From positions 62,001 to 126,000 of the forward strand of contig JAIOYF010000005.1 of assembly GCA_021741245.1 (NCBI GenBank): a stretch of 64,000 bases of DNA, read 5' to 3'. Of the stretch, positions 7,685 to 27,385 are shown piece by piece. The notes beneath the pieces are model-generated. The model had not been told where the DNA came from, ran no database searches, and saw nothing but the letters and a program-made list of their open reading frames with translations. The stretch's first letter is position 1; the number at the start of each line of letters is the position of its first letter. Origin of the DNA: Paracoccaceae bacterium (GTDB lineage Bacteria; Pseudomonadota; Alphaproteobacteria; Rhodobacterales; Rhodobacteraceae). A program made the position numbers and the translations under genes.

Positions 7685-8470
7685 ATGAAAACCGCTGCCG
7701 CCCTTTTGGGCCTTTCACTTGCCCTTTCCTCCACTGCCCATGCCCAAAGCCTGCCCGATCTGGGCGGCAAGGAAATCGTGGTGGTGACCGAGAACGCCTA
7801 TCCGCCGCTGCAATTCCTTGATGCCTCGGGGGCGGCGATTGGCTGGGAGTATGACGCGATGGCCGAGTTGGCCAAGCGGATGAACTTTACCGTCAAGTAT
7901 GAGAACATCTCGTGGGATGCGATGATCCCGGCGGTATCCGAGGGCCAGTTCGATCTGGGTATGACGGGGATCACGATCCGCGATGACCGCAAGGAAAAGG
8001 TAGATTTTTCCGACAGCTACATGACCTCGGAAATGGTGATGATGGTGCGCGGCGACGAGGCGCGGTTTTCTGACAAGGCGTCTTTCGCGGCCAATGCCGA
8101 GCTTTTGATGGCGGCCCAGCCCGGCACGACGCCGTTTTATGTGGGCGTCTATGAGGTGCTGGATGGCGATGAAGCCAACCCGCGGGTCAAGTTGTTTGAA
8201 ACCTTTGGCGCGACGGTCGAGGCGCTGCGGGCGGGCGACGTGGATCTGGTGCTGACCGATGGCACGGCGGGCGCGGGCTATGTCGATGCGTCAAACGGCG
8301 GGCTGAAGATCGTGGGCGAAAAGCTGGGGACGGAGGATTTCGGCTTTATCTTCCCCAAAGGCTCGGATCTGGTGGGGCCGATGAATGCCGGGATTGCGGC
8401 GTTGCGGTCCGATGGCACCATTGAGGCGCTGAACAAGAAGTGGTTCCTTGATTACAAGTTGGGGCAATAA
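7685..8470 (+). CDS. ABC transporter substrate-binding protein, amino-acid type
   Basis: A 261-residue periplasmic binding protein of solute-binding family 3. A signal peptide (MKTAAALLGLSLALSSTAHA) is followed by IVVVTENAYPPLQFLDASG, the family opening, then EYDAMAELAKRMNF, SWDAMIPAVSEGQFDLGMTG, ITIRDDRKEKVDFSDSY and VDLVLTDGTAG. Family members bind polar amino acids or opines; the ligand cannot be assigned. GGAG precedes the ATG at 7685. A hairpin and the permease gene follow. Confidence 0.9.
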   Translation: MKTAAALLGLSLALSSTAHAQSLPDLGGKEIVVVTENAYPPLQFLDASGAAIGWEYDAMAELAKRMNFTVKYENISWDAMIPAVSEGQFDLGMTGITIRDDRKEKVDFSDSYMTSEMVMMVRGDEARFSDKASFAANAELLMAAQPGTTPFYVGVYEVLDGDEANPRVKLFETFGATVEALRAGDVDLVLTDGTAGAGYVDASNGGLKIVGEKLGTEDFGFIFPKGSDLVGPMNAGIAALRSDGTIEALNKKWFLDYKLGQ

Positions 8471-8478
8471 GGCCGTAA

Positions 8479-8496
8479 GCCCCGCTGGTGCGGGGC
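8479..8496 (+). promoter_or_regulatory. Intercistronic hairpin
   Basis: GCCCCG-CTGGTG-CGGGGC lies between the binding-protein and permease genes. Such stems often stabilise the upstream mRNA so that more binding protein than permease is made. No T-run follows that would make it a full terminator. Confidence 0.5.
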
Positions 8497-8506
8497 CGTT
8501 TGCCCG

Positions 8507-9304
8507 ATGCTGGGGCCATCTGATCAGGACAAGGACTTTCCCTATTGGCTGGTGATCGTCGGGGTGACGGTCGCTTGGCTGTTTTACGAAGTGCTTGCCA
8601 ATGACATCTATTCCCAAACCCTGACGACGCTGCTGCGCGGACTGTGGACCACGGTTTACGTGACGCTGATCGCCTATGCCGGGGCCTCGGCGCTTGGGCT
8701 TTTGCTGGCACTGGCGATGATGTCGCGGTTCATCGTGGTGCGGCAGGCGGCGCGGCTTTATGTCGAGGTGATGCGCGGTGTGCCGATCATCGTGCTGCTA
8801 TTGTATGTGGCCTTTGTGGTGGCCCCGGGGATGGTCGAGGGGTGGAACCTATTGGCCGCGCAGATCGGGCTGGAGCCGGTGCGGACACGGGATTTTCCGC
8901 TGATTGCGCGGGCGATCATGGCGCTTGTTCTGGCCTATGCCAGTTTTCTGGCCGAGGTGTTCCGGGCCGGCCTGCAATCGGTGGACAGGGGCCAGATCGA
9001 GGCGGCGGAATCGCTGGGGCTGAACGGCTGGCAACGCTTTCGTCACATCGTTTTTCCGCAAGCCTTTCGCACCATCCTGCCGCCTTACGGCAATGATTTC
9101 GTGGCGATGGTGAAGGACAGTTCCCTTGTGTCGGTTCTGGGCGTGGCGGATATTGCGCAATTGGGCAAGGTCACGGCGGCGGGGAATTTCAGGTATTTCG
9201 AGACCTATAACGTGGTGGCGCTGTTGTATCTGACCATGACAATCGGGCTAAGCCTGATCTTGCGCCGGGTTGAGATGCGGTTGCGCGCCCGAACGCATCG
9301 CTAG
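8507..9304 (+). CDS. Amino-acid-type ABC transporter permease
   Basis: A 265-residue inner-membrane permease of the HisM/GlnP family. TM segments begin near residue 12 (WLVIVGVTVAWLFYEVL), with others around 45-68, 80-105, 135-155 and 235-258. The hallmark EAA loop is present: QIEAAESLGLNGWQRFRHIVFPQA, followed by LPPYGNDFVAMVKDSSLVS. It starts 36 bp after the binding-protein gene. No ATP-binding protein gene is nearby, so the transporter must borrow one or its ATPase is encoded elsewhere. Confidence 0.88.
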   Translation: MLGPSDQDKDFPYWLVIVGVTVAWLFYEVLANDIYSQTLTTLLRGLWTTVYVTLIAYAGASALGLLLALAMMSRFIVVRQAARLYVEVMRGVPIIVLLLYVAFVVAPGMVEGWNLLAAQIGLEPVRTRDFPLIARAIMALVLAYASFLAEVFRAGLQSVDRGQIEAAESLGLNGWQRFRHIVFPQAFRTILPPYGNDFVAMVKDSSLVSVLGVADIAQLGKVTAAGNFRYFETYNVVALLYLTMTIGLSLILRRVEMRLRARTHR

Positions 9305-19482: not shown

Positions 19483-19890
19483 TCAGGCTGCGGCCAAGGC
19501 CGTGTCAAGCAGCGCCTTGATATCGGCCTTTGAGGTGCCCGCCACGATCCGGCCCAGCTCTTGCCGCCCTTTGAGCGCCACAAGGGTAGACCTGCGCGGG
19601 ATCTTGAGCGATTTCGACAGCTTGCCTTTGGCGTGTTCATCCCAATCCACGATGAAGAACACGATGTTTTGGGCGTAAGCCGGATTTTCGGCCTTTAGTG
19701 CGGTCAGGACCCTTTCCTGTGCGGCGCAGGTGGAGCACCAGCTTGCCCAGAAATCCAACAGCACGATCTTGCCCGCATCCATCGCGGCCTCGGCGGCGCC
19801 GGGGGTATAGCGGATGGGTTCGGCGGCGCGGGCAGCAAGCGGGGATAGGGTCAGGGCGGCAGAGAGGGCAATAAAGTCGCGGCGGTTCAT
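19483..19890 (-). CDS. Exported thioredoxin-like protein
   Basis: A 135-residue protein with a twin-arginine-like signal (MNRRDFIALSAALTLSPLAARA) and a thioredoxin fold. The active site is FWASWCSTC near residues 46-54, a CxxC pair. VFFIVDWDEHAKGKLSKSLK and IPRRSTLVALKG (in place of the usual cis-Pro strand) follow. It starts 17 bp after the ccdA stop, so CcdA probably supplies it with electrons and it reduces disulfides in the periplasm. The target could be cytochrome c haem-binding cysteines or envelope proteins. It is shorter than CcmG and SoxW, so it is not assigned to either. Confidence 0.85.
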   Translation of the reverse strand: MNRRDFIALSAALTLSPLAARAAEPIRYTPGAAEAAMDAGKIVLLDFWASWCSTCAAQERVLTALKAENPAYAQNIVFFIVDWDEHAKGKLSKSLKIPRRSTLVALKGRQELGRIVAGTSKADIKALLDTALAAA

Positions 19891-19907: not shown

Positions 19908-20621
19908 TCAAAGGGCAACAGAAAGGTCGATCAGCCAGGCAGGCAGGTTTTGCACCAGCCAACCTTCGATGATGTGATTGATGCCGAACCACAGGCCGGC
20001 CCCGACAAGGATGAAGGCGAGGGCCATGGCGGGTTTGGCGCGCTGTGCAAAGGCGCGGAGGCTGGCTTGCCGTTTGCGGATCGCGGATTGTGCGCCGTAA
20101 GCCAGGGTCAGGATCAGGGTTGAGACGCCAATGGCAAAGGCCAGCATGACGCCGCCCGCCCGGCCAAGGCTTTCCCCGGTGGAGGCAAGCGCAATGGCAG
20201 CGCCCAGCGTCGGGCCGATGCAGGGGCTCCATACCGCGCCAAGCAGGGCACCGGAAAGGAACTGTCCGCCCAGCCCTGCGTCTGACGCGCGATCCATCTG
20301 CGCATCGGCACGGGCGGCGAGGCCTGCCGTGGCCATCGAAAACCGTCCCGAAAAGGCGGGCACCAGCATCACAAGGCCAAAGGCCACCATGGCCAGTGCC
20401 GCCCCCCGTGCCACCATGTCGCTGTCAAGGCCAAGCGCCGGGCCAAGGGCCGTGACGCCCAGCCCAAGCACGACAAAGGACAGGCTGAGCCCGGCGGCAA
20501 GCGCCAGCGGGGCCCGTCTGTCACGGTGCAGGCTGCTGGCCAGAACGATGGGCAAGACGGGCAGGACGCAAGGGTTGATCAGGGTCAAAAGGCCCGCAAG
20601 ATAGGCAAAGACAAATTCCAC
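19908..20621 (-). CDS. ccdA: CcdA-family thiol-disulfide transmembrane reductase
   Basis: A 237-residue membrane protein of the CcdA/DsbD-gamma family that carries electrons from cytoplasmic thioredoxin to the periplasm. The two redox cysteines are in FAYLAGLLTLINPCVLPVLP (TM1, Cys18) and GALLGAVWSPCIGPTLGAA (TM4). Six TM helices are visible. The gene is followed by the thioredoxin-like gene 17 bp away. Upstream, on the same strand, lies a GTGTAAC-N16-CGAAAA promoter, the mirror of the promoter of the adjacent ECF sigma gene, so it is probably a target of that sigma factor. Confidence 0.9.
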   Translation of the reverse strand: MEFVFAYLAGLLTLINPCVLPVLPIVLASSLHRDRRAPLALAAGLSLSFVVLGLGVTALGPALGLDSDMVARGAALAMVAFGLVMLVPAFSGRFSMATAGLAARADAQMDRASDAGLGGQFLSGALLGAVWSPCIGPTLGAAIALASTGESLGRAGGVMLAFAIGVSTLILTLAYGAQSAIRKRQASLRAFAQRAKPAMALAFILVGAGLWFGINHIIEGWLVQNLPAWLIDLSVAL

Positions 20622-20733: not shown

Positions 20734-20762
20734 TTTTCGCAGGATCCCGCCTTTCGTTACAC
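20734..20762 (-). promoter_or_regulatory. ECF-type promoter of ccdA-thioredoxin operon
   Basis: Read on the minus strand: GTGTAAC (20762-20756), 16-nt spacer, CGAAAA (20739-20734). The predicted start lies near 20727, about 105 nt before the ccdA ATG. Element sequence and spacing equal those of the divergent sigma-gene promoter. Confidence 0.65.
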
Positions 20763-20814
20763 CGATCACGAACAGGTGTTTCGGGGGGGAGGGGCGCTAA
20801 AAATTGTGCTGGGC

Positions 20815-20843
20815 GTGTAACAAAACCATGTCGGCCCCGAACT
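20815..20843 (+). promoter_or_regulatory. ECF-type autoregulatory promoter of the sigma gene
   Basis: GTGTAAC (20815-20821), 16-nt spacer, CGAACT (20838-20843). A start near 20850 is expected, which would leave almost no leader before the ATG codons at 20852 and 20855, or 17 nt before the ATG at 20867. Confidence 0.65.
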
Positions 20844-20854
20844 GAAGGGCAATG

Positions 20855-21400
20855 ATGGCAGAGCAGATGGACGAGTGGGGACAGCTTTTGACGGCTGCAA
20901 ACACTGGCGACAGCCGGGCCTATGCGCTTTTCTTGCAGGCTGTGGCGCCTGTGATGCGGGGAATTGTGCGGGCCAAGGGGGCTGGCTTGGGCGAGGCTGC
21001 CTGTGAAGACGTGGTGCAAGAGGTGTTGCTGGCCATTCACCTCAAGCGGCACACATGGGACCCGAGTGCGCCGGTGCGTCCGTGGCTTTATGCCATTGCG
21101 CGTTACAAGGTGGTCGATGCCTTTCGCTCTCGCGGGCGCAGGGTCGATCTGCCGATTGAGGATTTTGCCGATGATCTGGCGGCGGAGGCCGGGCCGGACC
21201 CGACCGAGGCGGCGGACATGGCCAAGATGATCGGGATGCTGGATGGCCGTTCGGCACAGATTGTCCGCAAGATCGGATTGGAAGGCGCCAGCGTGGCCGA
21301 AACGGGCCAGCTGCTGACGATGAGCGAAGGCGCGGTGCGGGTTGCCCTGCACCGGGCATTGAAAACTTTGGCCGTCCTTCGGGAAAGGCATGTGAAATGA
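20855..21400 (+). CDS. ECF RNA polymerase sigma factor (NrsF-controlled type)
   Basis: An ECF sigma factor of about 181 residues. Region 2 includes CEDVVQEVLLAIHLKRHTWDP and VRPWLYAIARYKVVDAFRSRGR; region 4 has LDGRSAQIVRKIGLEGASVAETGQLLTMSEGAVRVALHRALKTL with the helix-turn-helix near residues 145-170. The following gene, overlapping by ATGA, encodes an NrsF-type membrane anti-sigma factor, which places it in the SigF/NrsF class known from Caulobacter. In-frame ATGs occur at 20852, 20855 and 20867. 20855 is listed because AAGGG is better spaced, but the predicted promoter would make that transcript nearly leaderless. It probably activates its own operon and ccdA. Confidence 0.92.
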   Translation: MAEQMDEWGQLLTAANTGDSRAYALFLQAVAPVMRGIVRAKGAGLGEAACEDVVQEVLLAIHLKRHTWDPSAPVRPWLYAIARYKVVDAFRSRGRRVDLPIEDFADDLAAEAGPDPTEAADMAKMIGMLDGRSAQIVRKIGLEGASVAETGQLLTMSEGAVRVALHRALKTLAVLRERHVK

Positions 21401-22032
21401 AGACTGATGATCTGATCCGCGCGCTTGCCGCCGATACCCGCCCTGAACGCCCGCTTTGGGCGCTGTTGATGCTTGGGCTGTTGCCTGCGCTGGCCTTTGC
21501 CGTGGGTGTGGTTTGGGCGACGCTTGGCTTTCGAGTCGATCTGGCGACGGCGCTGGTGACGCCGGTTTCGGCGGCGCGGATCGTGCTGACCGGGGCCTTG
21601 GGGATCGTGGGGATGCGTCTTGCGCTGTTGCTGGCCCGGCCCGAGGGGCGGGGTCGCGCGCGGTTTTGGCCGTTGGCCGTCGTGGGGGCAGTGGCGCTTG
21701 GACTGTTGGCTTGGGCCTATGTCACCATCCCACCCGAGGCGCGGCAGATGGCGGTTGTGGGCAAGACCATGACCACCTGTCTGGTGATGATTCCGCTTTT
21801 GTCGATCCTGCCGGTCACCTCGATCCTTTATGCCCTGCGGCAGGGGGCCACGACGGTGCCAGCGCTTGCGGGGGCTGTGGCCGGGCTGGCGGGGGGTGGC
21901 ATGTCGGCGGCGATCTATGCGCTGCATTGCAGCGAGGACAGCCCGCTGTTTTATGTGACGTGGTATGGGCTTTCGATCCTTGGGGTGACTTTGGTCGCAA
22001 CGGTTTTGGGGGCGCGGCTGCTGCGCTGGTAG
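21397..22032 (+). CDS. nrsF: NrsF-family (DUF1109) membrane anti-sigma factor
   Basis: A 211-residue protein with six predicted TM helices (starting near residues 21, 54, 90, 126, 153 and 188) and a short cytoplasmic N-terminus MKTDDLIRALAADTRP that is typical of the family. Two cysteines, Cys128 (KTMTTCLVMIP) and Cys178 (YALHCSEDSP), sit where the paired conserved cysteines of NrsF are expected and could sense metals or thiol stress. NrsF proteins hold their ECF sigma factor at the membrane until a signal arrives. It is translationally coupled to the sigma gene. Confidence 0.88.
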   Translation: MKTDDLIRALAADTRPERPLWALLMLGLLPALAFAVGVVWATLGFRVDLATALVTPVSAARIVLTGALGIVGMRLALLLARPEGRGRARFWPLAVVGAVALGLLAWAYVTIPPEARQMAVVGKTMTTCLVMIPLLSILPVTSILYALRQGATTVPALAGAVAGLAGGGMSAAIYALHCSEDSPLFYVTWYGLSILGVTLVATVLGARLLRW

Positions 22033-22039
22033 CGTGGTA

Positions 22040-22867
22040 TCAGGGCTGCGCCTCGAACCAATCCAGCGCAAGGGTGGCCCAGCCCTTTGGCACGGTATGA
22101 CCGCCGGGGTGCAGGGCAAAGGCCAGCCCTGCACCGGGCAGGCAGGTGGTCCATTCGCGGATCTGAAAGGGGCCTTTGGTGGCAAAGCTGTCGGGGCGCA
22201 TGGCGGTGCAGCCGTTCGTTTCGCGCCAAAGGCTGAGGGCCGCAAACACATCGCCTTGGGCAAAGCCGGAGCCAAGCCTCCGCCCCTCCAGCGGGACGGT
22301 AAGATCGGTCCAGCCATGGGTGTGCAGCAGTCGCACCGGGCCGTTGCAGGCCGTGGGATGGGGCCGCCAGAAGCTGCCCGCAACCGGGGCATAGGCCGCG
22401 AAATCACCGGGGCGAGTGCAGGCGGCATAGCTGACCATGGACCCGCCGATGGAAAACCCCGCAAGCAGCATTGCGCCCCGATCCAGATCAAAGCGGCGGG
22501 CGGCATCATCGGCCACCTCGGCCAGAAAGGCGGCCTCATCCCGGCGGGCGGGGCGGTCGGGGTGGAAATCCCATGTCAGGCCGGTGCGGGTGGTTTGCCC
22601 TTGGCGCGGCTGGCCGTCCGGGGCGATCACGGCATAGCCGCGCGACAGCAGCACCGCCACCATGCCGCGATTGCGCAAGGTGCCCGCACCAGAGCCGCCA
22701 AAGCCGTGCAAGACCATGACGGCCTTGTGGGGGCCTGCGCCTTCGGGGCGTTCAAGGTGATAGGTGCCGTGGGGTGTCTGGCAGGGGGCTGGATCGTTGT
22801 TGCAGCCCGCCTGTGCCACGCTGGCCAGCAGGCAAAGCCAAAGGGCTGCGGTCAGGGGGCGGATCAT
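22040..22867 (-). CDS. Exported alpha/beta hydrolase, PHB depolymerase/LpqC-like esterase
   Basis: A 275-residue protein with a signal peptide (MIRPLTAALWLCLLASVAQAG) and an alpha/beta-hydrolase fold. VMVLHGFGGSGAGTLRN forms the oxyanion-hole region, LLAGFSIGGSMVSYAA the nucleophile elbow GFSIG, and HPGGHTVPKGW the catalytic His. It resembles the PHB depolymerase/feruloyl esterase family of exported carboxylesterases. The ATG overlaps the opgH stop by 4 bp, so it is the last gene of the opg operon. A role in trimming ester substituents (such as succinyl groups) from periplasmic glucans is attractive but only inferred from position. Confidence 0.82.
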   Translation of the reverse strand: MIRPLTAALWLCLLASVAQAGCNNDPAPCQTPHGTYHLERPEGAGPHKAVMVLHGFGGSGAGTLRNRGMVAVLLSRGYAVIAPDGQPRQGQTTRTGLTWDFHPDRPARRDEAAFLAEVADDAARRFDLDRGAMLLAGFSIGGSMVSYAACTRPGDFAAYAPVAGSFWRPHPTACNGPVRLLHTHGWTDLTVPLEGRRLGSGFAQGDVFAALSLWRETNGCTAMRPDSFATKGPFQIREWTTCLPGAGLAFALHPGGHTVPKGWATLALDWFEAQP

Positions 22868-24639
22868 GATCTGCCCTCCAACGGGCGAAACAGCCGGTTG
22901 CGCGGGGCTTTGGTTTGCACCAGCCATGCCAGCGGAACCGTAAGGTTGAGCCCGATGGCGACGGGCAAGAGCCATGGTGTCAGCCCGCCGATCAGGGCGA
23001 GGGCCAGAAGGCCAAGGCCAAGCAGGGTTTCCGTGGCGTGAAAGCGGATCAGGCTGGCAAGGGGGGTCTTGCCGGTTTGATGCGGCATCCAGCCCCCGTC
23101 GATCCCGGCCAGAATGCGCAGCACGGCGCGCACCTGATGCACCATCATCATGGGGGCCAGCAGCATGGAAAGCGTGACCTCGGCCACAAGGCTGGCGGCA
23201 AAGGCGGGAAGCTGAGCAAGGGCGGGGCGGCGGTCGCGCAGATGGGCAATGGTGCCGATCAGCTTTGGGGCCAAAAGCATCAGGGCCACGGCAAGGGTCA
23301 GGGTGCCTTGGGTCACGGCTGGAAGCTCTGGCCAGACCGGCATAAGGCCGTTGGTGGGATAGGCTTGGGGGGCGGTGGGGGTCACCCAATCGGTCAGGTC
23401 CGGCAGCGCCCAAAGCGCCAGCAGAACCAGCCACCAGACCGAGGAAAGATAGGCCATCGCCCCGTGCAGCAGATGAAACCGCGAGACGGGGTGCAGGCCA
23501 GGTGTTCGAAGCAATGAGAGGTGTTGCATATTGCCCTGACACCAGCGCCTGTCGCGGCGCAGATAACCGGCAAGGGTTTCGGGCGTGTCTTCAAAGCTTT
23601 CGTCGGCCTGCGGCAGCAGACGCACGCCCCATCCGGCCCGGCGCAAAAGGGCGGCCTCGACAAAATCATGGCTCAGGATCACCCCCCCGCGCGGTGCGCG
23701 GCCCGGCAGATGCGGCAGGCCCGCGCTTGCGGCAAAGGCGCGGGTGCGGACCAGCGCATTATGGCCCAGAAAATTCCCCTCGGCCCCGGTCCAGAACGCA
23801 AAGCCCCGGCCCAGATTGGTGCCGTAAACCTCGGAGGCGAAGGATTGCATTCGTTGCCACAGGCTGTGGCCGGGGCGGACGCGGGGCACGGTTTGCAGCA
23901 GGCCACAGCCGGGATCGGCGGCCATGACATCGGCCAGATGCAAAACGGTTGGTGCTCCCATGATGCTGTCGGCATCAAGGATCAGCATCGCCTCATATGC
24001 CTGACCATGGCTGCGGACCCAATCGCGGATATTGCCGGACTTGAAGTCAATGTTCTGGGCGCGGTGGCGATAGTGGATCGCAAGGCCCGGATGGCGGTGG
24101 CGGAACAGGGTGGCAAGGGCCTGTTCGCGCGCCTGCGCCTTTGGATCGCGGCTGTCAGACAAGATGTGCAGCGCAAAGCGGTGGGGGGTGGCCAAGGCGT
24201 GCAGTTGGCGCAGCAGGTGGATGGCATGGCCCATGGTCAGGCGAGCAGGCTCGCCATACATTGGCAGCAAGATTGCGATGTGCAGGCCGTTGCGGGGGGG
24301 GATGGGGATGGGGTCCCTTGGGTGAAACAGGCCCAAAAGGGCGGTCAGGACGGACAGCATGCTCCAGTAAAGCGCAAAGGCGGTGACGGCGATCAAGGTC
24401 GCCTCGATCAGGCCCAGATGCCCGTCAAGCGCAAACCAGCCCAAGGCGATGCGGCCAAGGGACAGACTGCCCAAGGCGGGCAGGGTCAGGGTCAGCACCC
24501 GCAACAAACGGACCGCTGCAGTGGAGCCGGTGCCGGGGGCATTGGGATCGCGGTAGGGGGCGTGCAGGTCCTGATCCGCCATCATCAGCGGTTGTGGCAG
24601 GGTTTGCGGCAAAACTGGGCTGCGCAGGGGAAAGTTCAT
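22864..24639 (-). CDS. opgH: Periplasmic glucan glucosyltransferase
   Basis: OpgH (MdoH) uses UDP-glucose to polymerise the beta-glucan backbone and moves it across the inner membrane. The 591-residue protein has N-terminal TM helices (about 45-100), a GT2 catalytic domain with HIAILLPMYGEPARLT, LHILSDSRDP, MLILDADSIMGAP, SHDFVEAALLRRAGW and YLRRDRRWCQGNMQHL (the RW-type product-binding motif), then four or five C-terminal TM helices. It is shorter than E. coli MdoH (over 800 residues), as in other alphaproteobacteria. The ATG overlaps the opgG stop (ATGA). It sits in the opgC-opgG-opgH-esterase chain. Confidence 0.92.
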   Translation of the reverse strand: MNFPLRSPVLPQTLPQPLMMADQDLHAPYRDPNAPGTGSTAAVRLLRVLTLTLPALGSLSLGRIALGWFALDGHLGLIEATLIAVTAFALYWSMLSVLTALLGLFHPRDPIPIPPRNGLHIAILLPMYGEPARLTMGHAIHLLRQLHALATPHRFALHILSDSRDPKAQAREQALATLFRHRHPGLAIHYRHRAQNIDFKSGNIRDWVRSHGQAYEAMLILDADSIMGAPTVLHLADVMAADPGCGLLQTVPRVRPGHSLWQRMQSFASEVYGTNLGRGFAFWTGAEGNFLGHNALVRTRAFAASAGLPHLPGRAPRGGVILSHDFVEAALLRRAGWGVRLLPQADESFEDTPETLAGYLRRDRRWCQGNMQHLSLLRTPGLHPVSRFHLLHGAMAYLSSVWWLVLLALWALPDLTDWVTPTAPQAYPTNGLMPVWPELPAVTQGTLTLAVALMLLAPKLIGTIAHLRDRRPALAQLPAFAASLVAEVTLSMLLAPMMMVHQVRAVLRILAGIDGGWMPHQTGKTPLASLIRFHATETLLGLGLLALALIGGLTPWLLPVAIGLNLTVPLAWLVQTKAPRNRLFRPLEGRS

Positions 24640-26174
24640 GCGCCTGCCCAACGGTTCAGCCAGACCTCGGCCACGGGGTGCCCGTCGCGCCAGAGTTCGG
24701 CGCGCAGTTCGGCAGGCCCGGTTGCCCCGCGAAGCGTCAGGTCAAGGCGGATGCCCCCGGTGGCGGGGTTGCGCTGCACCAGCGTGGTGCTGATCTGCCC
24801 CGATGTGGAGGTGACCCGCGGCTCAAGCTGGGCGGGGTCAGGGCCAAGGGCGGGGTGGGGGGCATAGTCGATGCTGAAGATGCGCCCCTCTTCAAACACG
24901 CGCGCGCCGGTTCGGGTGGCGGTTATGGCGGCCAGACGCCCCTCGGCCGGGGAGGCGGCGCACCAGTGCAGGCGATAGTCAAAGCGATAATCCCGCCCCG
25001 CCAGCAGCGAGGCCGCAGGGCGCCAGAAGGCCACGATATTGTCGTTGATCTCTTTGTCGGTCGGAATTTCGACCAGCATCACGGCCCCCGCGCCCCAATC
25101 GCCCAAGGGTTCCACCCACAGCGAGGGGCGGCGTTCATAATGGGCCACCAGATCGTTGTAATCGCCGGGGCTGCGGGCGCGCTGCATCAGGCCAAAGCCG
25201 CGCGGGGTGGCATCGGAAAAGGCGCTGACCTCTACGCCCGAGGGGTTGGTCAGGGGCCGCCACAGCACCTCGCCCGCGCCATTCATCATCAAAAGGCCAT
25301 CGCTGTCATGCACCGCCTCGCGGAAATCATCAAAGCGGGTGCGGTTGATATCGTTGAACAAGAACATCGATGTGCCGGGGGCGATGCCGACGGTGGTCAG
25401 ATCGGTGCGGGGGAAAAGATGGCTGGTGACCGTCATTTCGGTCGCCTCGCCCTTGGCGATGGTAAAGGTATAGGCCCCGGCGACCGAGGGGCTTTCAAGC
25501 AAGGCATGGATGCGGGCGGTCGGTGCGCCGGGGTCTGACGCCTCAATCCAGAAATCGCGGAAGACGGGGAATTCCTCTGGGCCTTGACCGGCGGTGTTCA
25601 GGGCAAGGCCACGGGCCGAGAGGCCGTAGATCTGCCCGCGACCGATGGCGCGGAAATAGCTGGCGCCCTGAAAGACGGCATATTCCTGAAAGCGGCCCTC
25701 CACCTCCACCTCGCCCAGCAGGCGAAAGCCCGCAAAGCCGGTGCCTGCTTCGGCAAGCGTGGGGAATTGGTCGGTGGTGTCAAAGGTGCGGAGTTCAAAC
25801 AGGATGGGCTGAGACTGGCCATTTTGCACCGCGTTCAGGCCGATCTTGTGCGGGAAATAGAGGCCGGCGGCAAAGAATTCGGCCTGCACCGCGCCGGGTT
25901 GGCCACGATAAAGCGTGTGGCGTGTGTCAAACCAGATGCCGCGAAAGGCATCATAGGACAGGTCCAGCCAGTCCTGCGCGACCATTGGCGGCGGGGCATA
26001 GGGGGTGGCGGCCAAGGCGCGGGCGCGGTCTATGATCATTTCGGGGGAAAAGGGTGTTGCGGGGCCAAGGGTCATGCCTGCCTGCGCGGCCTCGGCGCTA
26101 GCTGGCAGGGGCAAACCAAAGGCAGAGGCGCTGGCCAGCAATGACAGGAACTGACGGCGGGAAAGGCTGCTCAT
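24636..26174 (-). CDS. opgG: Periplasmic glucan biosynthesis protein
   Basis: OpgG (MdoG) is a periplasmic protein needed to branch or release osmoregulated glucans. At 512 residues it has the usual size. The N-terminus MSSLSRRQFLSLLASASAFG is a twin-arginine signal. Family blocks include LSYDAFRGIWFDTRHTLYR, FDTTDQFPTLAEAGTGFAGFRL, FQGASYFRAIGRGQIYGLSA, TSMFLFNDINRTRFDDFREA, and ERRPSLWVEPLGDWGAGAV. OpgG is known elsewhere as a glucan-active glycoside hydrolase. The start at 26174 overlaps the opgC stop by 4 bp. Confidence 0.94.
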   Translation of the reverse strand: MSSLSRRQFLSLLASASAFGLPLPASAEAAQAGMTLGPATPFSPEMIIDRARALAATPYAPPPMVAQDWLDLSYDAFRGIWFDTRHTLYRGQPGAVQAEFFAAGLYFPHKIGLNAVQNGQSQPILFELRTFDTTDQFPTLAEAGTGFAGFRLLGEVEVEGRFQEYAVFQGASYFRAIGRGQIYGLSARGLALNTAGQGPEEFPVFRDFWIEASDPGAPTARIHALLESPSVAGAYTFTIAKGEATEMTVTSHLFPRTDLTTVGIAPGTSMFLFNDINRTRFDDFREAVHDSDGLLMMNGAGEVLWRPLTNPSGVEVSAFSDATPRGFGLMQRARSPGDYNDLVAHYERRPSLWVEPLGDWGAGAVMLVEIPTDKEINDNIVAFWRPAASLLAGRDYRFDYRLHWCAASPAEGRLAAITATRTGARVFEEGRIFSIDYAPHPALGPDPAQLEPRVTSTSGQISTTLVQRNPATGGIRLDLTLRGATGPAELRAELWRDGHPVAEVWLNRWAGA

Positions 26175-27385
26175 GTGCGCATCTCGGCCATAAGGGCGGT
26201 GGGAGAGGGGCGTGGAACCTCGGGGTTTTGGCGCGGGGCGGTGGCAGTTTTCCACGGCTGACGCTTTAGGGTGGCGGTCAGGTGGGCCACGCCGATTATC
26301 ACGGCAAAGCCCGCAAGGTTGACCATCAGCGCGGCCAATGGCCCGCCACCCCCTGCGTGCAGCACGGCCCCAAGTGCGCGCGCAAGGACCATCGAGGTTG
26401 CAAAGACCGCAAGCGACTGTTGGCCGACGCGCGAGATCAGCGCGATCCCACGGCCCCGCCATCCGCCTTGGCGCAGGCGCGCGCCCATCGGTCCGGCAAA
26501 GACCCATGCCAGATAGGCAAGGGCCAGAAAATGGATCAGCCGCAGCAGGCCGAAATCGGATTTGTCGAACAGCACGGCCCAATCGCGCCGCCAGTCGCGG
26601 ATCGCCTCGGAGGCGGCGATGATCTTGTGCCACGCAAGGGGCACCGACAGCAGGACGATGGCGGCGGCAAGTGCGATCAGCCCGCGTGAAACCGGGGGGG
26701 TGGGAAGCCAACCCATCATCAGGGCAAAGCCGCAAAAGAACACCAATTGCCATGCAAAGGGGTTGAAGAACCACTCCCGCGCCGAGGGCTTGGTAAACCA
26801 CAATTCGGCGGGCAGGTTCAGTCCCGCCGTGGCCGCCAGCCACAGGGTCAGGCTGGCCAGAATGGCGAGGCGGGCGTCGATCCGGGCAAGGGCCATCATG
26901 ACCGGGATCAGCGCTAGGATCACCAGATACATCGGCAAAATGTCAAAGTAATTAGGCACATAGGTCAGGGTGAACAGGCCCAGAAGGTTTGGCCCCGTGG
27001 TGTTGAGGAAGGGGTAAAGGTTCAGCGCCCCCACCTCATCCCGGGGAAAGGCCCCGGTTTGGTTGATGGCCAGCATCAGCACCAGCGTTGTGAAAAAAAC
27101 GCCGATATGCACCCAATACACCTGCCAGATCCGATGGGCGATGCGCAGGCTGCCCAAGGCCCAGCCCGCCTTTGAAAACACCGCGCCAAAGGCAAGGGCG
27201 GAGGCCATGCCAGAGCAAAAGACGAACATCTCGGTCGCATCGGAAAAGCCAAAGCGGGCGGGAATCCACAGCGTCCATGGGTTGTTGGTGATATGGGCGA
27301 TCAAGATGATGAACATGCCCAAGCCGCGAAAGAAATCGAGGCGCGGGTCGCGAAGGCGCGGGGCGGAGGGTGCGGGCGCGGGCAT
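26171..27385 (-). CDS. opgC: Periplasmic glucan succinyltransferase
   Basis: A 404-residue multi-pass membrane protein (about 10 TM helices) of the OpgC/acyltransferase-3-like family. Family blocks are RDPRLDFFRGLGMFIILIAH, NNPWTLWIPARFGFSDATEMFVF and RIWQVYWVHIGVFF. OpgC transfers succinyl groups to periplasmic glucans in R. sphaeroides and related bacteria, giving them negative charge. The ATG lies 3 bp after the stop of the TPR gene, and its own stop overlaps opgG. No opgI homologue is present between opgG and opgH, unlike the R. sphaeroides opgGIHC operon as I recall it. Confidence 0.9.
   Translation of the reverse strand: MPAPAPSAPRLRDPRLDFFRGLGMFIILIAHITNNPWTLWIPARFGFSDATEMFVFCSGMASALAFGAVFSKAGWALGSLRIAHRIWQVYWVHIGVFFTTLVLMLAINQTGAFPRDEVGALNLYPFLNTTGPNLLGLFTLTYVPNYFDILPMYLVILALIPVMMALARIDARLAILASLTLWLAATAGLNLPAELWFTKPSAREWFFNPFAWQLVFFCGFALMMGWLPTPPVSRGLIALAAAIVLLSVPLAWHKIIAASEAIRDWRRDWAVLFDKSDFGLLRLIHFLALAYLAWVFAGPMGARLRQGGWRGRGIALISRVGQQSLAVFATSMVLARALGAVLHAGGGGPLAALMVNLAGFAVIIGVAHLTATLKRQPWKTATAPRQNPEVPRPSPTALMAEMRT

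Follow-up and report, generated by a model that had tools for sequence, protein, structure and literature searches.

The locus described here very probably encodes a stress switch of the ECF16 (SigF/NrsF) type, in which attack on two cysteines of an anti-sigma factor would release the sigma factor, the freed sigma factor would transcribe its own operon together with a divergent ccdA-thioredoxin pair, and a second factor would act at a putative operator on the outward promoter. The locus lies in a 64,000-nucleotide stretch of a Paracoccaceae bacterium genome (contig JAIOYF010000005.1, positions 62,001 to 126,000), hereafter the window. Within a lineage of the Rhodobacteraceae, and there in at least two gene arrangements, a periplasmic electron-supply pair would thereby be tied to sigma factors of the ECF16 type, which respond to copper and oxidants. 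Furthermore, ECF16 target promoters often carry a conserved additional putative operator that the sigma factor's own promoter lacks.

Genes of the locus

The sigma gene (20852-21400, forward strand) encodes a SigF-like protein of 182 amino acids that scores 219 bits against NF009165 (cutoff 198) and contains regions 2 and 4 only (PF04542 and PF08281), as is the rule in ECF16. Its end overlaps by 4 nt the start of nrsF (21397-22032, forward strand), which encodes a membrane protein of the DUF1109/NrsF anti-sigma family (PF06532, 158 bits, cutoff 26.8, E = 3.6e-46) and is the only copy in this genome. Judged by its sequence, this protein belongs to the same family by Pfam and stands outside the NCBIfam equivalog AntiSigF_NrsF (NF042994), against which it scores 93.5 bits, under the 300-bit cutoff. 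A simple hydropathy method found five segments at the cutoff used; the ECF16 anti-sigma class has six transmembrane segments. The protein has two cysteines, C128 and C178, the first kept in 72 and the second in all of 73 sequences (the window's included), and their distance of 50 residues is that expected of ECF16 and that of Caulobacter C131 and C181. By this analogy, the proposal in an earlier, sequence-only reading of the window that the two cysteines may act as sensors is supported. On these features, we assign the two genes to ECF16 as a sigma-NrsF pair.

On the reverse strand, ccdA (19908-20621) encodes a CcdA/DsbD-like membrane thiol electron carrier (PF02683 and PF13386, and its place in a CcdA tree). 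It is followed, after a gap of 17 nt, by a gene (19483-19890, reverse strand) for a thioredoxin (PF00085) with a WCSTC motif and a Tat-like signal, MNRRDFI, which was recognized by eye and suggests export. The two neighbouring genes thus have the composition of a reductant pair, namely a DsbD/CcdA membrane domain and a presumably exported CxxC thioredoxin. CcdA matched one other protein in this genome at E 0.001, with 30% identity. Further along the window, at 22864-26843 (reverse strand), are genes that we take, by eye, to be OpgH/OpgG-like glucan synthesis genes, the second with a Tat-type signal.

A pair of predicted divergent ECF16-type promoters

Between ccdA and the sigma gene, GTGTAAC-N16-CGAA occurs once on each strand, as GTGTAACGAAAGGCGGGATCCTGCGAA at 20762-20736 (reverse strand) and GTGTAACAAAACCATGTCGGCCCCGAA at 20815-20841 (forward strand), so that the two elements face outward with the same N16 spacing. 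The sequence-only reading had reported this pair and judged it unlikely to have arisen by chance. Both points are borne out: shuffling the window (100 dinucleotide shuffles) left a mean of 0.00 matches, and the genome holds no exact copy besides these two. Allowing N15-17, GTGTAAC-N15-17-CGAA again gave just these two matches in 4,196,036 bases on 27 contigs (backwards control, 6). The looser GTAAC-N15-17-CGAA had 22 matches versus 137 for its backward control and is not rare, so the pair is distinctive only through the longer -35 element. The strength of the observation therefore lies in the longer -35 together with the equal spacing and the position. The resemblance that it pointed out to the promoters of the Caulobacter SigF/NrsF system was also correct; in the excerpts of the literature on which this and later citations rest, the Caulobacter SigF promoter is given as GTAACC-N16-CGAA (PMC3511200) and the ECF16 promoter as tGTAACc-N16-CGAA (PMC3420878). 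The base 3′ of GTAAC is A or G in the window, versus C in these ECF16 promoters, and 20815-20841 still has the form expected of an autoregulatory ECF16 promoter.

From the motif and its conservation, we predict that 20815-20841 (forward strand) is the ECF16-type promoter of sigma-nrsF and that 20736-20762 (reverse strand) is the outward ECF16-type promoter of ccdA and the thioredoxin gene. As only 10 nt separate the sigma-side CGAA from the first ATG, the sigma-nrsF transcript would probably be almost leaderless. The predicted 5′ leader of the ccdA-thioredoxin transcript is about 108 nt.

Conservation and gene arrangements in relatives

We compared a named set of 80 loci, all from Rhodobacteraceae or other Rhodobacterales except L034 (Sphingomonadales) and L089 (labelled only ‘bacterium’). 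The sigma gene was recognized in 75 of them, and a sigma-side motif was defined as GTAA[CT]-N15-18-CG[AT]A at most 75 nt before the sigma start. This motif is present in 55 of the 75 relatives, mostly about 37 nt upstream of the sigma start, and an outward motif is present in 33. Conservation of both motifs, which had been proposed as a check on the original observation, is thus found, and paired divergent promoters, as predicted from these motifs, are usual in the group and no peculiarity of this genome. The 20 loci that have no sigma-side motif comprise 15 in which sigma-nrsF closes a co-linear bufferin run, two (L082 and L110) that are cut by a contig end, and three (L043, L069 and L087) that have no recognized motif. 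NrsF is present in 13 of the 16 genomes of the genus, and 9 of these 13 loci have the sigma-side motif; the outward motif occurs in 3/3 of those with ccdA opposite the sigma gene, versus 0/6 of the others. Genus loci and named loci are in part the same records, and their counts were never summed.

The 33 outward motifs of the named set face bufferin (copper-peptide) operons (20), ccdA (9) or methionine-sulfoxide reductase (Msr) genes (4), and nothing else. One of these three targets stands opposite the sigma gene in 39 loci, including all 33 with the outward motif, and the other 36 loci are without an outward motif. The family names come from Pfam searches of one bufferin operon (L065: DUF2282, MNIO PF05114, DUF2063 and DoxX) and one Msr operon (L067: MsrB, a CcdA-TlpA fusion, MsrA and LysR), and by tblastn from these for the rest. 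Thirteen loci have ccdA opposite the sigma gene, nine of them with the outward motif; L034, with ccdA and the thioredoxin gene present and the sigma gene unrecognized, is left out of this count. A culturable species that shares the window's layout is Pseudotabrizicola alkalilacus (L046). The four ccdA loci that have no outward motif at the pattern used are L038 and L057, with intact ccdA, and L037 and L049, with ccdA fragments only. In the latter two, a decayed ccdA thus stands opposite sigma-nrsF and the outward motif is gone too.

In a second arrangement, found in seven loci, ccdA and the thioredoxin gene lie on the same strand as sigma-nrsF and directly 5′ of it, behind bufA, MNIO, DUF2063 and DoxX genes, with bufA and MNIO present in all seven. 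A promoter motif was found at bufA in 14 of the 15 co-linear loci, a number that includes these seven. In a third arrangement, the ccdA-thioredoxin pair is located elsewhere in an NrsF-containing genome: L167 has GTAAC-N16-CGTA and the palindrome described below before ccdA, and the distant ccdA of L168 has the palindrome only, with no -35 at that distance.

These arrangements bear on what the electrons delivered by CcdA are for. Use in Msr repair, for bufferin thiols or in the resetting of NrsF would each be conceivable, and a main role in supplying periplasmic methionine-sulfoxide reductases, with thiol proteins or bufferin served less, is a serious contender to which we give somewhat under an even chance. 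Opposite sigma-nrsF, genes for MsrB, a CcdA-TlpA fusion and MsrA are found in L067, L079 and L099 (Cypionkella and Pseudorhodobacter; Pfam for L067, tblastn for the other two), which because of the fusion were counted under Msr and not under ccdA, and in L194 ccdA and the thioredoxin gene are followed by frames similar to MsrB (43%) and MsrA (40%). The same role has been proposed for Bradyrhizobium (PMC3420878), and in Haemophilus influenzae the ECF sigma factor RpoE2 controls the msrAB operon, which encodes CcdA and an exported thioredoxin (PMC9404787). As predicted for our locus, the Haemophilus system thus places such a pair under an ECF sigma factor, but there the operon belongs to Msr repair, and no Msr gene adjoins the window's pair among the neighbouring genes scanned. 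In L067, L079 and L099, MsrA is followed by a gene of the L067 LysR cluster.

A palindrome at target promoters

Aligning the promoters on their -35 elements drew attention to a palindrome, [AT]CAC-N6-GTGA, which on the outward side lies upstream of GTAAC with 5 nt in between. In the window, this putative operator, ACACCTGTTCGTGA, occupies 20766-20779 (reverse strand), at the same distance of 5 nt upstream from the outward -35; the outward side scores 7/7 and the sigma side 3/7. The description of the two promoters as mirror images therefore holds for their boxes and spacing, but not for the palindrome, which is an extra element of the outward side only.

A strict pattern (N6-7) finds the palindrome in 19/33 outward versus 0/55 sigma promoters. 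When at least six of seven positions were required and small shifts allowed, it was present in 27/33 outward promoters, a figure biased by the discovery of the palindrome on these same 33, in 14/14 co-linear bufA promoters and in 2/55 sigma promoters, versus about 0.9% of controls in which the 40 bases upstream were simply shuffled. By target, it occurs at 8/9 ccdA, 4/4 Msr and 15/20 bufferin promoters, and after removal of similar sequences at 20/25 outward versus 1/45 sigma promoters.

Two further searches are fairer tests. Searching the 295 family genomes for a composite pattern (the palindrome, 5 nt and GTAAC-N16-17-CGAA) gave 10 matches, against 1 for the backward control; these fall in 8 genomes, all of which are among the 41 with NrsF (hypergeometric P = 7e-8). 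The genes 3′ of the ten matches, identified partly by eye, are bufA (4), DUF2063 (1), MsrB (2), the window's ccdA-thioredoxin pair, a DoxX-like frame (1; 31% identity) and LysR (1). Among 387 genomes of the class, four match, including that of the window, and the backward control gives one. Of the remaining three matches, two are bufA promoters opposite sigma-nrsF, and the third, L206, has no recognized ECF16 gene beside it. The second test used an independent class-wide set, the best-scoring 29 NrsF loci besides the window's, counted by hand with a looser motif (CG[AT], N14-18). Here the palindrome is found in 9/20 outward versus 0/24 sigma promoters (Fisher P = 0.0002), with the outward matches L236, L237 and L238 (scores 4, 2 and 3) left out for lying far from or inside the sigma start. 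The palindrome is, on these counts, common in predicted ECF16 target promoters, without being universal.

The centre of the palindrome is about 44 nt upstream of the predicted transcript start, a position that would suit a class II activator. The target genes probably need a second regulator besides the sigma factor, and since the operator is on the outward promoter only, target output would probably be gated by both factors and sigma autoregulation would not. The palindrome might instead be an extended part of the promoter that is read by the sigma factor or RNA polymerase, with no second protein involved. Its nearly fixed distance of 5 nt from the -35 is compatible with this idea, and so is the lack of a candidate regulator, since close matches to the linked LysR are missing from the genus. 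We nevertheless find it unlikely, because nearly all sigma promoters, which the same sigma factor should use, are without the palindrome (2/55 and 0/24 carry one), because the palindrome is G+C-rich, unlike an A+T-rich UP element, and because L168 keeps it without a -35 at that distance.

We considered the LysR protein of the L067 Msr operon as the binder of the putative operator; a gene for a 69% identical protein lies behind the composite site of L203. It was rejected, as the 16 genus genomes contain a single match at E ≤ 1e-25 (G006, 36% identical) and the window's genome none, so that this protein is no general binder. The identity of the protein that shares control of bufferin, Msr and CcdA-thioredoxin genes with SigF has thus become a testable question. 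We found no description of a second operator at ECF16 promoters in the excerpts of the literature searched, and other papers may exist.

CcdA across the family

Of the 295 family genomes, 41 have NrsF above the cutoff, 105 have the window's type of ccdA, and 13 have both. There is no positive co-occurrence of the two: ccdA is present in 13/41 genomes with NrsF versus 92/254 genomes without (P = 0.77, cross-tabulated by hand). The wide claim that the ccdA-thioredoxin pair belongs to SigF was therefore dropped, and the missing association marks the pair as an optional target. It looks like a wider module that is controlled by an ECF16 sigma factor in part of the family.

We also considered whether the two linked arrangements had recruited ccdA independently. 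In the CcdA tree, however, both arrangements fall, together with L167 and L168, into one clade (22 rows, support 100/100), with the unlinked rows being the best-scoring 29 where 105 genomes match. A single origin followed by rearrangement is thus possible. Among the same 29 unlinked loci, again the best-scoring where 105 genomes match, the commonest neighbour of ccdA is an EamA-type transporter gene (cluster k2, 20 members, with Pfam run on one).

The abundance of this ccdA type in genomes without NrsF, and its EamA-type neighbour at those unlinked loci, would suit a sigma factor that controls its own operon only, with the outward motif inactive or redundant and the ccdA-thioredoxin pair on a housekeeping promoter, as perhaps in many Rhodobacteraceae without NrsF, but this is quite improbable given that the outward motif tracks recognized targets (33/39 versus 0/36 loci) and, in the genus, ccdA (3/3 versus 0/6), that it is missing where ccdA has decayed (L037 and L049), that the co-linear operon exists, and that such control has been measured in Bradyrhizobium (PMC3420878).

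Proposed mechanism and known ECF16 systems

In the ECF16 switch that we favour, NrsF would keep the sigma factor at the membrane until an oxidant or a soft metal of the copper type attacked its two cysteines and thereby freed the sigma factor. This step is suggested by the conservation of C128 and C178 and by mutants in Caulobacter (NrsF cysteine mutants; PMC3511200) and Bradyrhizobium (PMC3420878). The signal is likely to be copper or an oxidant, by analogy with Caulobacter, where copper induces the SigF regulon and a sigF::Tn5 mutant is sensitive to this metal (PMC8224329). From 20815-20841, the freed sigma factor would transcribe the operon that encodes it, and from 20736-20762, in the opposite direction, the ccdA-thioredoxin pair, with a second regulator acting at the putative operator of the outward promoter (20766-20779). 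CcdA would then deliver electrons through the membrane, and the exported thioredoxin that receives them would reduce thiols or feed periplasmic repair enzymes.

That the sigma factor drives both itself and the ccdA-thioredoxin pair was the central claim of the sequence-only reading, and motif conservation together with a precedent in Bradyrhizobium japonicum supports it. There, deletion of the anti-sigma gene osrA raised expression of bll1027 and bll1026, encoding a DsbD-like protein and a periplasmic thioredoxin, 89.5- and 92.4-fold, and GTAAC-type motifs were reported (PMC3420878). The EcfF-OsrA system, also ECF16, thus controls the same kind of pair, and Msr genes too, and its transcripts start 6 bp after the -10, close to the start codon, which we count as a further likeness. 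Unlike in the window, bll1027-26 are not divergent from the sigma gene, being by locus tag beside ecfQ (bll1028) while ecfF is blr3038, and the spacing of the EcfF promoter is given as N14-15, not N16. A divergent layout is known from the ECF16 system RpoE7-EcfR7 of Sinorhizobium meliloti. The four genes on which this system acts most strongly point away from the sigma operon, and ECF16-like motifs have been predicted for either side; unlike the predicted targets in the window, these genes are orthologues of Caulobacter CC3254-CC3257, a bufferin-type operon (PMC6180224). Given the control shown in Bradyrhizobium and the divergent targets in S. meliloti, the central claim adds one more example to a design already described.

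Caulobacter crescentus SigF-NrsF resembles our locus in its sigma-NrsF operon, its GTAACC-N16-CGAA promoter, the two NrsF cysteines 50 residues apart and the autoregulation that is predicted here, but its targets are bufferin-type operons and YedY, not a ccdA-thioredoxin pair, and the excerpts describing it make no mention of a second operator. Similarly, BcrS-AbcS of Brucella melitensis combines an ECF16 sigma factor with a DUF1109 anti-sigma factor containing C129 and C179, but its target is the bcrXQP operon and it responds to hypochlorite (PMC8315932). Sigma and NrsF genes are also reported in Buf1 clusters, in a paper whose main text, in the excerpts available, lacks CcdA and thioredoxin (PMC12452194). 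Among the titles searched, none deals with CcdA and ECF sigma factors in Rhodobacteraceae, and we found no earlier description of the operator or of the co-linear bufferin-ccdA-thioredoxin-sigma run in that literature.

A more elaborate version adds an AND gate and closes the system into a periplasmic redox loop. Oxidized or metal-bound NrsF would free the sigma factor, the ccdA-thioredoxin pair would be induced only with a second regulator at [AT]CAC-N6-GTGA, and the thioredoxin would re-reduce NrsF and so end the response. Such a loop would be the extracytoplasmic counterpart of the σR-RsrA-thioredoxin loop. We regard it as speculative, with only a small chance of being correct in full; if it were, its second-regulator part would hold for ECF16 target promoters of several families of Alphaproteobacteria.

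Bufferin operons of this genome and its genus

The bufferin operon of this genome lies on another contig, and we rejected it as a third target of SigF since no forward GTAAC-N14-18-CGNA is present upstream of it. The regulon in this genome may accordingly be very small. Nine other bufferin loci of the genus divide into six with the motif (three N16 CGAA, one N17 CGTA and two N18 CGTA) and three without. By eye, the genome's own locus (L155, contig C17) has, upstream of the MNIO gene (8152-8946, reverse strand), a reversed GTGTGA-N5-GTAACGAA and a palindrome-like CACACGGGCCTGTGA, and similar reversed elements were seen in several genus mates. Also by eye, L155, L161 and L163 contain a partly degenerate inverted repeat, CATCGC...GCGATG, between the promoter region and the bufA start, which is possibly a leader hairpin or an operator.
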